From Massilia sp. (lineage in GTDB: Bacteria > Pseudomonadota > Gammaproteobacteria > Burkholderiales > Burkholderiaceae_D): 39,464 nucleotides of DNA. Shown in pieces: positions 7,081 to 10,822 of the stretch. Made by a program: the position numbers and the translations under genes. The notes under the pieces are model-generated. The model did no database searches. It saw only the letters and a list, made by a program, of their open reading frames with translations, and had not been told where the DNA came from. The stretch covers positions 1-39,464 of the forward strand of contig JANYGW010000120.1 in assembly GCA_025359245.1 (NCBI GenBank), given 5' to 3'. Numbering within the stretch: the first letter of the stretch is position 1; the number at the start of each line of letters is the position of its first letter.

Positions 7081-7240
7081 CCAAAGCAAAGTTACTTCAA
7101 GGAACAAAAACGTCAGTATTCCCCGGCAGTTTTTGACTGACATCAACTGCCCAGCGAGCTCATCCGCATCCGCTCCGCCGAGTTGATAAGGTGACATCTT
7201 GGTACGCCCGCCGGCATACCACTTCGCTCCGGGAGACGCC

Positions 7241-10200
7241 ATGACCAGACTTGTTTCATCCGTCAGCAGTTCCTTGCACGCCAGCAAAGCGCGTGCCTTA
7301 CTCGCCAGGGCCGGCGCGCTGCTGGCGCTGGCCGCGGCACTGTTCGGCCCGGCGCCGCCGGCCGCCGCCGTCGCGCTGGTAACGCTGAGCACCCCGACAC
7401 CGTCGGCGCACGCGAACAGCACCATGCTGGTCGATATCTGGGTCCAGGGTTTGCAGCAGGCAGGCACCCAGAACCTGCTGGGCGCCTTCGCCATGGATCT
7501 CCTATTCGATCCCAGGCTCAGCTTCCTGCCAGGGTCGACCACCTTGTATGGCGCCCTGGGCGACGTGTTCGGCGGCGAGGCTGTGGTCGGATCGGCGCCG
7601 CTCGCCCCCGGCCGCTTCAGTTTTTACGAAATCTCCCTGCTTGAAGGGCGCTTTGCCACATGCACCTTCTGCGACGGCCCCTACCTGGAGGATCTGCAGT
7701 CGGACCGCTTCAGGGTGGCAACGCTGGCGTTCTTCATTCCCTTTAGCGCCGGCGAGAGCACGCTGCGTTTTTCCGCCGACAACATCGTGCTCAGCGACGA
7801 TGCCGGCGCCGCATTGCCGGCCGGGCCGACGGCGCCGCTGTTCGTCACGGTCGCCGAGCCTGGCACCATCGCACTGGCCGCCCTCGCCCTGCTGGGGATC
7901 GCGCTCGGCCGGCGCCGGCCGCGCCTGCTCATTCCTGGCCTGCTGCTGTACTGCGCCGCGCAGGCCCAGGTGTATCAGATACCACTCCGGTTGCGCACGC
8001 TGCAATTGCCAAGCGGACAGGTCGCCGCCGGGGCCGCGGCCCTTGCCGGCGCGCCGCGCAGCTATTTGATCGTCCAGTTCGACCACAGCCCCGGCGCCCA
8101 GTCGCTGGCGGGCATGGCGGCTGCCGGCATCCGGCCGCTGTCATTTCTGTATAACAATGCGTGGATCTGCAGCGTGGACGGCGGCGCATTGACGCCAGCG
8201 ACGGTGGCGCGCTTCGGCATTGCCGCCAGCACGCCCTGGCTGGCCGAGTACAAATTGAGCGCAAGCTTGCAGCAACAGCGCTCCCCTGCTTGGGCCAAGG
8301 ATGGCGACGGCAAGCTCAGGCTCGTGGTGCGCTTCTTCAGCGACGCCGCGCCGGCGCACATCAAGGCCTTGCTCGACAGCGTAGCGGCCAGCGGCAGCGC
8401 CCAGCCGGGCGCCGCCCCGGTCTGGCACATCACCATCGCACCGGCCCAGGTGCCGGCGCTGGCCGCGCTGGCCCAGGTGGAATCGATCGCCGAGGGGCCA
8501 CCCCCCTTCATGCCGCTCAACGATGGCAGCCGTGCGCTGTCGGCGGTGGATGCGGTGCAGGCGGCCGACCTGAGCCAGACGCCGCCGCGCTACCGGGGCT
8601 TGTCGGGACGCGGGATTATCCTGGCGGTCTCGGAGGCAGTCGTCGACAGCCATCCCGACTTCAACGAGCATGATGCCGCCGGCAACGTCACCACCAGCCG
8701 GGTCCTCAATTCATTGGGCGGCGGCGACCTGCACGGCCAGCATGTGGCCGGCACGATCGGCGGCAACGGCTGGAACAGCAGCCGGGGCATCAACCGCGGC
8801 CAGCCTTTCCAGTGGCGCGGCATGGCGCCCGAATCGACCCTGGTGTCCTATGATGGCTATGACGACTTTGCTGTGGATGCAAGCAATCATTCCTACGTGA
8901 TGAGTGATGGCCAATACGACAGCTGGACCCAATCGGTGGACGACGCCGTCAAGGGCCGCGCCGGCGCGGCCAGACGCCGGCCCCACGTCTGGGCTGCCGG
9001 CAACGAGGGCTTCATCCCGGAATATACGCGGGAGCGCGGCTACTATTCGATCTTGGCGCCGGCCAAGAATGCGCTGGTGGTCGGCGCGGTCAACGCCAAC
9101 GATGCTGCGCTGGCCGTGTTCAGCAGCCTCGGTCCCACCTTCGACGGGCGCGTCAAGCCCGACGTCGTCGCCGCCGGCTGCCGCAATACCTTCGCTCCCG
9201 CGTTCGATTTCGATGCCCAGGTCAGTGTCGAAATCGACTATCTGCGCATCTATGACCCGGATGCCGGCGCCGCCGGCCCGAGCTGCGCGGCAGTGCCCGA
9301 CAGCGGCGCCGCGCGGCCTGCCTATTGCTGGGAATTCAATCGGGACGGCAACGCCGAAGGCTGGTTCGACGACGAGTTCCAGAACATCGAGCGGCGCCGG
9401 GTTGCCGCCGGCGCGCTGGCGTTCGACATCAAGCCCCTGGCCCAAGCGGGCGGCGAGCATGCGTTCGGCTTCGTCAAGAACCTGGCGCTCGACAGCGGCG
9501 CGCGCCAGTTTGTCGAAATGCGCTACCGGATCGCGCCGGTCGCCGCACCGTTTAGCGCCATGGCCAACTTGTTCTGGCGCCGCGGCGGCAGCAGCGAGTA
9601 TGTCGACGGCGAACTGGAAGGGACGGTGCGCGCCGACGGCCAGTTCCATGTCCTCTCGCTGCCGGTCGGGCAATTGGGCATGGCGCGCGGCCCCAACGGA
9701 CCGACCGGCGTGCGCGGCTGGACCGGCACGCTCACTGCGTTGCGCCTCGATCCGCTCTACAGCACCGGGATCCGCTCCACCTCCAGCGAGGACGGCGCCT
9801 ATTATTCGAATTGCGGCACCAGCATGGCCGCGCCGGTCGTCACCGGCATTACCGCCCTGTTGCTGCAGCGCATACGCCAGGACTACGGCATCGACCTGGC
9901 CGGCGCGCCGCCGCTGCCGTCGACCACCAAGGCGGTGCTGATCCAGACCGCGACCGACCTGGTGCATGAAACGGCCAATCCGCGCGACCCGGCCAACCCC
10001 GACACCGGCACGCCCGTGCTCTACCACAAGGGACCGGATTTCGCGACCGGCTACGGCCTGGTCAACGCGCGCGCCGCCGACGCGCTGCTCACCGGCGGCC
10101 AATCATTCAACTGCAGCGCAGCGGGCCACCCGGTGTGCGAGTCGCAGCTCGGCAGCAGCGCCAAGCGCGAAGTATTCGGGTTCCGCGTCTTGCCCGGCTT

Positions 10201-10822
10201 CGATGAGCTGAAAGTCACGCTGGCATGGGACGACACCAGCGGCAATCCGGCGCTGCGCGGTACCACGCCGATGCTGGTCAACGACCTCGACCTGGTGCTG
10301 ATCGATCCGCAAGGCGTGGCCCACCATGCCTGGCGCGCCACCCCGCCGCCGATCGCGCCCTGCCGGGTTGAACCTGACTGCAGCATCAACGATCCGATCG
10401 CGCCAGCCGACATCGTCGCCGCCGGGCGCGGGCGCGACCACCTGAACAATGTCGAACAGGTGCAGGTCGACCAACCGCTGGCCGGCAACTGGCGCCTCCT
10501 GGTCGAGGGTTACAATCTGCAAGACCAGAGCGCGCCGCAGCGTTATTCGTTGGCGGCCTCGGCGCATGGCTACGTGGCGCCGGATCCGGCCATCCGCACC
10601 CTCGCACCGCTCGCGGTGGCAAGGGTGAACGTGGACGCCGCCGACCTGAACGGAGACGGCTGCGTCGATCGCGCCGACCTGGCCTTGCTCACCGCCAACC
10701 TGAACGAGCCGGCGCCGCACAATGGCGCTTATGACCTCAACGGCGACGAGCGCACCGATATCGCCGATGCGCGCTACCTTGCCACCAAGTTCAGCCGGCC
10801 AAAAGGCGCGGCCTGTCAGTAG
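7241..10822 (+). CDS. Cohesin-like/PEP-CTERM/subtilisin-like protease/dockerin fusion
   Basis: 1193 residues from ATG 7241 (GGGAG five bases upstream; the frame could open at TTG 7199 without a site). Residues 1-42 form a signal peptide. About 43-200 look like a cohesin-type beta domain of PEP-CTERM proteins. A PEP-CTERM signal follows (VAEPGT 204-209, a membrane helix, RRRPR 224-228), where such proteins normally stop. The frame instead continues into a second signal-like segment (229-245, LYCAAQAQ), a propeptide-like region and an S8 protease. His498 (HGQHVAGT), Asn588 (AAGNEG) and Ser861 (GTSMAAP) are present. The usual Asp motif reads AVSEAVVDSHPDF (462-474), so the Asp position is Ser464 or Glu465. 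About 200 residues (650-855) are inserted before the Ser. Two Ca-binding dockerin loops close the protein (DLNGDG at 1135, DLNGDE at 1165). It could be two genes fused in frame. Confidence 0.85.
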   Translation: MTRLVSSVSSSLHASKARALLARAGALLALAAALFGPAPPAAAVALVTLSTPTPSAHANSTMLVDIWVQGLQQAGTQNLLGAFAMDLLFDPRLSFLPGSTTLYGALGDVFGGEAVVGSAPLAPGRFSFYEISLLEGRFATCTFCDGPYLEDLQSDRFRVATLAFFIPFSAGESTLRFSADNIVLSDDAGAALPAGPTAPLFVTVAEPGTIALAALALLGIALGRRRPRLLIPGLLLYCAAQAQVYQIPLRLRTLQLPSGQVAAGAAALAGAPRSYLIVQFDHSPGAQSLAGMAAAGIRPLSFLYNNAWICSVDGGALTPATVARFGIAASTPWLAEYKLSASLQQQRSPAWAKDGDGKLRLVVRFFSDAAPAHIKALLDSVAASGSAQPGAAPVWHITIAPAQVPALAALAQVESIAEGPPPFMPLNDGSRALSAVDAVQAADLSQTPPRYRGLSGRGIILAVSEAVVDSHPDFNEHDAAGNVTTSRVLNSLGGGDLHGQHVAGTIGGNGWNSSRGINRGQPFQWRGMAPESTLVSYDGYDDFAVDASNHSYVMSDGQYDSWTQSVDDAVKGRAGAARRRPHVWAAGNEGFIPEYTRERGYYSILAPAKNALVVGAVNANDAALAVFSSLGPTFDGRVKPDVVAAGCRNTFAPAFDFDAQVSVEIDYLRIYDPDAGAAGPSCAAVPDSGAARPAYCWEFNRDGNAEGWFDDEFQNIERRRVAAGALAFDIKPLAQAGGEHAFGFVKNLALDSGARQFVEMRYRIAPVAAPFSAMANLFWRRGGSSEYVDGELEGTVRADGQFHVLSLPVGQLGMARGPNGPTGVRGWTGTLTALRLDPLYSTGIRSTSSEDGAYYSNCGTSMAAPVVTGITALLLQRIRQDYGIDLAGAPPLPSTTKAVLIQTATDLVHETANPRDPANPDTGTPVLYHKGPDFATGYGLVNARAADALLTGGQSFNCSAAGHPVCESQLGSSAKREVFGFRVLPGFDELKVTLAWDDTSGNPALRGTTPMLVNDLDLVLIDPQGVAHHAWRATPPPIAPCRVEPDCSINDPIAPADIVAAGRGRDHLNNVEQVQVDQPLAGNWRLLVEGYNLQDQSAPQRYSLAASAHGYVAPDPAIRTLAPLAVARVNVDAADLNGDGCVDRADLALLTANLNEPAPHNGAYDLNGDERTDIADARYLATKFSRPKGAACQ

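Follow-up and report, generated by a model that had tools for sequence, protein, structure and literature searches.

We report a single gene of Massilia sp. in which a cohesin-bearing anchor protein and a dockerin-bearing, protease-like protein are encoded in one unbroken reading frame. It lies in a stretch of 39,464 nucleotides (contig JANYGW010000120.1, analyzed at its full length and called the window here), where the open reading frame (ORF) at 7241-10822 of the + strand encodes 1193 residues with no internal stop. The parts follow in the order signal peptide, cohesin, PEP-CTERM-like segment, second signal-peptide-like segment, S8 region and dockerin. A first-pass annotation had described this layout from cohesin to dockerin, and the fused architecture is confirmed as a real observation; the interpretation offered there is borne out in part. 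The joint at its center, where an internal PEP-CTERM runs into a second signal-peptide-like segment, recurs in at least three lineages. We consider it slightly better than an even bet that the ORF is a fusion of an anchor gene carrying cohesin and PEP-CTERM with a dockerin-bearing partner gene, and that its product may be a secreted polyprotein that is split into products able to re-pair.

The frame opens with an ATG at 7241, 5 nt downstream of a GGGAG at 7231-7235, and closes with the stop codon at 10820-10822. Its features are as follows.

7241..10822, + strand: whole fusion ORF, 1193 residues (ORF translation).
7241..7369, + strand: predicted N-terminal signal peptide, residues 1-43 (hydrophobic peak at residues 25-33 by simple hydropathy; cut site placed by eye).
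7364..7837, + strand: cohesin domain, residues 42-199 (AlphaFold2 [AF2], Foldseek and profile A3).
7850..7924, + strand: internal PEP-CTERM-like segment (AEPGT, helix, RRRPR), residues 204-228 (Pfam, genome search and models).
7910..7969, + strand: second signal-peptide-like segment, RRRPRLLIPGLLLYCAAQA and then Q, residues 224-243; its basic cluster is common to the PEP-CTERM-like segment.
8057..8590, + strand: stretch between the second signal and the S8 domain, a probable propeptide by its position; no Pfam family match.
8606..9958, + strand: S8 peptidase region (Pfam and alignment to subtilases of the PDB).
10640..10783, + strand: type I dockerin with two Ca-binding loops, DLNGDGCVDRADL and DLNGDERTDIADARYL (Pfam).

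A scan for promoters and terminators found nothing beyond chance expectation. Among nine proteins scanned against NCBIfam, no model scored over its cut-off except those for PEP-CTERM-type sorting domains.

The PEP motif VAEPGT spans residues 204-209, a helix covers residues 209-223 in the AF2 models, and the basic cluster RRRPR stands at residues 224-228; another 965 residues follow. The sorting signal is thus internal, near residue 210, with the frame running on as the first-pass annotation had pointed out. At the protein level its Pfam score is 16.3 bits, under the cut-off of 20.7, and in the genome search the same segment reaches 23.1 bits, over the cut-off. The second signal-like segment is likewise where it had been proposed: directly after RRRPR comes a hydrophobic stretch, LLIPGLLLYCAAQAQ (residues 229-243), that ends AAQAQ. 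Its hydrophobic part is short (about 12 residues) and it closes with AQA before a Q, which resembles the AxA site of signal peptidase I. Because of this length and ending, a signal peptide is likelier here than a lasting membrane span, and such a site would offer a splitting route independent of exosortase. Lipoprotein anchoring at Cys238 was set aside by eye, as the residue at -1 is Tyr and there is no lipobox. In the frame of the window, 7850-7969 contains no ATG, GTG or TTG codon; the second half therefore has no usual start that would keep its signal intact.

The cohesin-like domain of the first-pass annotation is supported by modeling. The AF2 model of this domain, built on 21 alignment rows, has a predicted local distance difference test (pLDDT) score of 91.5. 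A Foldseek search of the PDB with it returned 1771 matches, 103 of them at an expectation value (E) of 0.001 or less (best 2.6e-10), and, judged by their titles, the best 50 of the 1771 are cohesins, complexes of cohesins or parts of cellulosome scaffolds. The cohesin-like module of NagJ is among the Foldseek rows (2jh2, by title), and the two 'Endoglucanase' rows of the PDB sequence search described below (5nrm, 5nrk) are cohesin complexes by title. PF00963 Cohesin was matched at E of 1 or less by 9 of the 15 members of our cohesin-only alignment A3, with a best E of 7.2e-7. The window member is not among the nine, and no Pfam model reaches an E of 1 or less against its N-terminal domain. A profile search against PDB sequences was weak (best E 0.017, 14 rows); 13 of the rows are scaffold proteins, O-GlcNAcase NagJ chains or cellulosomal chains, and one is a nucleotidyl transferase. 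The modeled fold and the PF00963 matches of its relatives agree, and support a cohesin fold for the window domain.

At the other end of the chain, Pfam Dockerin_1 matches residues 1134-1181 with 25.2 bits (cut-off 22.9), covering two Ca-binding loop-helix repeats, so the two dockerin loops noted earlier are borne out. The S8 protease stood in part. Pfam Peptidase_S8 scores 96.5 bits, over its cut-off, with its best stretch at residues 456-647, and the closest PDB sequences to the region are the KP-43 and SubHal subtilases (E 2.2e-9 and 1.2e-9). Alignment with SubHal and with 1wmd, which we take to be KP-43, places H498, the oxyanion Asn N588 and S861 as expected. However, the Asp-His-Ser triad of S8 peptidases is incomplete: His and Ser align, and the catalytic Asp position is occupied by Glu465 (codon 8633-8635). 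Peptidase activity is uncertain because of this Glu. The region also differs from these subtilases in a large insertion, which puts some 190 additional residues between its Asn and Ser motifs, and in the attached dockerin. An AF2 model of the full-length protein has a mean pLDDT of 41.4, with the cohesin and the dockerin as its best-scoring parts, and is too poor to show docking.

As the first-pass annotation had suggested looking for, exosortase genes are present in the window's genome, with two PF09721 matches over the cut-off. PEP-CTERM matches number 25 at E of 0.001 or less, of which 24 are terminal, with the stop no more than 32 residues beyond the motif, in keeping with the usual position of this signal at the end of a protein; only that of the window is internal. 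On contig C185 (4813-5651), one of the exosortase genes begins about 40 nt downstream of a long ORF with a terminal PEP-CTERM, perhaps a dedicated pair. The genome has two dockerin matches. The second (46.2 bits) is on a reprolysin-like ORF (59 bits) of contig C78, where it is followed by a separate 195-residue cohesin-PEP-CTERM gene whose product is a distant cohesin (E 0.0028). Separate and fused arrangements therefore occur in the same genome.

We then asked how the two halves are arranged in relatives, which the first-pass annotation had named as a check. Our first profile (A1) extended over the PEP-CTERM as well, and in the order search the weaker matches listed were mostly to that part alone; the cohesin-only profile A3 was used after it. 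In searches that sampled part of each taxonomic group, A3 had matches in 30 of 392 genomes from the family and in 14 of 369 from the class; both counts include the window's own genome. We collected 41 cohesin/PEP-CTERM ORFs with long flanks, comprising all 33 places of the family search and eight from the order search (G049, G692, G721, G050, G445 and three in G422). The other 23 order-search loci (L038-L060, 1.5 kb flanks) were all scanned, and a cohesin match was found in L038 only. Order-search places listed without a locus were left out, except those of G422; some of them have long frames (for example, 1165 residues in G753, contig C21).

With a dockerin profile built from 11 stretches of these loci that were chosen by eye and include that of L018, a partly circular procedure, we found a dockerin in the same stretch as 38 of the 41 ORFs; the other three (L019, L066 and L067) run off their contigs. 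When each row was left out in turn, all 11 were still found (E 3.3e-26 to 1.9e-4). Pfam Dockerin_1 is below its cut-off for L018 (18.6 bits), L020, L023, L127, L128, L102, L103 and L104. The dockerin is on the same chain in the window and in L018, and in a separate ORF in the other 36, where it lies upstream of the cohesin ORF in 27 and downstream in nine, mostly as a direct neighbor. A dockerin was also found within 1.5 kb at 9 of 12 further loci of the class search. The halves are thus mostly separate neighboring genes, which makes fusion of neighbors the likely origin of the window ORF. The domains of the partner ORFs vary (S8, FG-GAP, GDSL lipase, vWA, reprolysin, IgGFc-binding, PKD); no cellulase is listed among those scanned, and L127 has a match to PF21027, a cellulose-binding protein family, inside its PKD region.

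The position of the PEP-CTERM divides the 41 ORFs. In 30, the stop comes within 57 residues after the motif; a contig end truncates another, and the remaining 10 continue. The ten are the window (S8), an ORF of Pseudoduganella buxea KCTC 52429 (G409, FG-GAP), two paralogues of G422 (vWA-like) and six members of one clade (L104-L109). A dockerin on the same chain is seen only in the window and in P. buxea, and by contig overlap in two more. The P. buxea ORF (L018) encodes 1022 residues with FG-GAP repeats and a C-terminal dockerin, which the profile still finds at E 1.5e-12 when that row is removed from it. The G422 paralogues, whose vWA-like part was assigned by eye, run off their contigs and seem to be continued by the dockerin-containing contig C98. 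In the six-genome clade, the ORF continues past the second signal-like segment into a small C-terminal domain (no Pfam match over the cut-off in the four scanned) and the dockerin is elsewhere; in L104, one alpha/beta-hydrolase-like gene and then the dockerin protein follow, and look-alikes of the hydrolase-like ORF occur in L108 and L109.

Two side observations concern these loci. The whole of contig C98 (5.2 kb, L102) is one open frame with a vWA-like part, a dockerin, and then Ig-like and YD/RHS-type repeats (by eye), and the contigs of the two paralogous cohesin genes that it appears to continue end in the same sequence. The fused P. buxea gene and its nearest cohesin relative, L019 of Massilia arenosa, both stand just after a uvrA-like gene (by eye).

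In all ten internal cases, the basic cluster leads straight into a hydrophobic stretch ending in AxA. All 10 internal cases fit a loose signal-peptide pattern that was written after they were known; among control segments, 3397 of 31288 fit it, as do 52 of the 330 that begin with a basic pair. In a quick tree built from 54 cohesins, of which 43 are terminal, 10 internal and 1 undetermined, the internal state takes four changes, of which at least three are forced by starred branches. The ratio of nonsynonymous to synonymous substitution rates (dN/dS) for the PEP-CTERM and second-signal stretch is 0.13, 0.20 and 0.20 among L104, L106 and L108.

From these features, we propose the following route. 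The first signal peptide would take the chain into the Sec pathway, and the PEP-CTERM helix would stop its transfer. Under the positive-inside rule, the basic RRRPR loop is placed in the cytoplasm, between the incoming and the returning segments. The second hydrophobic stretch may borrow the RRRPR cluster as its n-region and restart transfer, after which signal peptidase I would cut behind AQA and free the protease-dockerin part into the periplasm. The cohesin would stay on the PEP-CTERM helix and probably then be processed by exosortase like an ordinary PEP-CTERM protein. Formed in a one-to-one ratio, these two products could re-pair through cohesin and dockerin and so place the protease on the surface. 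Applied to the six-member clade, these cuts would release the small domain and not a dockerin; with the dockerin in another gene, the re-pairing step as described does not hold for these members.

Several observations weigh against this proposal. Most relatives keep the halves as separate genes, so fusion is not needed for the pairing, and the dockerin is in a separate gene in six of the ten internal cases. Three of the 12 further loci of the class search have no dockerin within 1.5 kb, and L038 (G638, contig C34), a terminal PEP-CTERM cohesin, has none within 1.5 kb on each side and is a possible exception to the pairing. Close copies also occur among the internal cases (L104, L106 and L108), as does a pair of paralogues (the two of G422). 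The dN/dS of the joint rises to 0.36-0.99 in comparisons with L107, and the signal-peptide pattern is post hoc. For the window itself, the PEP motif is AEP and its segment is under the Pfam cut-off at the protein level, the protease has Glu465 in place of the catalytic Asp, and the fused S8 gene has no close orthologue in the genus, family and phylum samples. Of 17 genomes in the genus, only that of the window matched the full chain; 12 of 392 family genomes matched it (the window's own and 11 partial matches), as did 3 of 60 in a first search of relatives (the window's own and two partial matches). A search of 299 phylum genomes with the S8 half alone found the window and a single short match besides. 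With no orthologue, selection on this fusion is unmeasurable and the gene is not datable. Finally, Haft et al. 2006 (PMC1569441) note very few PEP-CTERMs with much longer tails and regard them as possibly non-functional.

That last view, together with the weak PEP score and the missing orthologue, would fit a neutral accident, in which two adjacent genes fused recently in frame, leaving the second signal as a remnant and ending the processing of the PEP-CTERM. The nearest relatives have separate genes, and the five tree rows nearest to the window are all terminal. A fusion of two neighbors was also the simpler view of the first-pass annotation, and as an origin it is likely. What speaks against mere accident is that a similar joint arose at least three times and was kept through divergence in the six-genome clade, and that the frame of the window is intact over 3.6 kb even though its second half lacks a standard start. 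We regard a neutral accident as unlikely. The arrangement that the first-pass annotation had taken as refuting, with a first ORF that stops after the basic cluster and a separate second ORF, is the commonest state in relatives; it does not make the fusion an artefact, because the internal PEP-CTERM with its second signal recurs in at least three lineages.

The chain might instead stay uncut, with a membrane hairpin anchoring both the cohesin and the protease-dockerin part, and docking within or between chains. Both partners are indeed on one chain, and cleavage is a predicted step only. However, a second stretch of about 12 residues that ends AQA before Q resembles a signal peptide more than it does a permanent span, and the AxA ending is present in 10 of 10 internal cases; we find an uncut chain rather improbable. 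Polymerization of such chains, which the first-pass annotation had raised, gained no support. Translation of the protease half alone, from a non-standard start near the joint, is very improbable. It draws on the CTG and ATT codons of the window joint and on other internal cases (for example, L018, L066 and L067) that have an ATG, GTG or TTG there, and it is opposed by the absence of all three codons from 7850-7969 and by L107 and L109, whose joints offer only the GTG of VPEP and one TTG in the helix, respectively. An assembly or sequencing artefact is scarcely credible despite the state of the genome (81.66% complete, 4.63% contaminated, 244 contigs), since the halves share one frame with no standard start for the second at the joint and a similar architecture is found in another assembly, that of P. 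buxea KCTC 52429.

The proposed split polyprotein has partial counterparts among known systems. In Bradyrhizobium, the fbcH precursor of cytochromes b and c1 is cut at an internal signal sequence, so that one ORF gives two membrane or secreted products; that precursor serves a respiratory complex and has neither a sorting signal nor re-pairing domains. Like substrates of the PEP-CTERM/exosortase (EpsH/XrtA) system, the window protein has a predicted signal peptide and a PEP-like motif with helix and basic cluster, a segment that scores on either side of the Pfam cut-off, in a genome with exosortase; it differs in that its signal is internal, with the long chain beyond the basic cluster, whereas Haft et al. 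2006 give fewer than 10 residues after the signal for 87% of PEP-CTERM proteins. With cellulosomal and non-cellulosomal cohesin-dockerin pairs, it shares the cohesin fold and a type I dockerin. It differs in that this chain is no multi-cohesin scaffoldin: it has a single cohesin, with an exosortase-type anchor, and the cargo beside such anchors is varied (S8, reprolysin, GDSL lipase, vWA, IgGFc-binding). The one paper found to join exosortase with dockerin, PMC5244752, reviews methanotrophic archaea and takes up cohesin, dockerin and archaeosortase domains in ANME archaea; a looser search added another archaeal paper, PMC9012536. A literature search, made mostly without subscription papers, found none that joins PEP-CTERM with dockerin, or with cohesin and dockerin, which is not proof of novelty. 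The parts are known; the joint is unusual and repeated.

These findings connect exosortase sorting with cohesin-dockerin pairing, both of them well-known systems. The pairing of an anchor gene with a cargo gene suggests a role for some of the PEP-CTERM proteins that largely lack an assigned function, as sockets for secreted cargo. More tentatively, and at somewhat less than even chances, a PEP-CTERM followed by a signal peptide may be a repeatedly evolved splitting joint that turns neighboring genes into a secreted polyprotein, whose one-to-one products would re-pair outside the membrane. If so, the internal PEP-CTERMs of such joints would be working signals rather than decayed ones, and exosortase processing would be easy to track in the fused forms, where one gene would give two products released through two different cuts.

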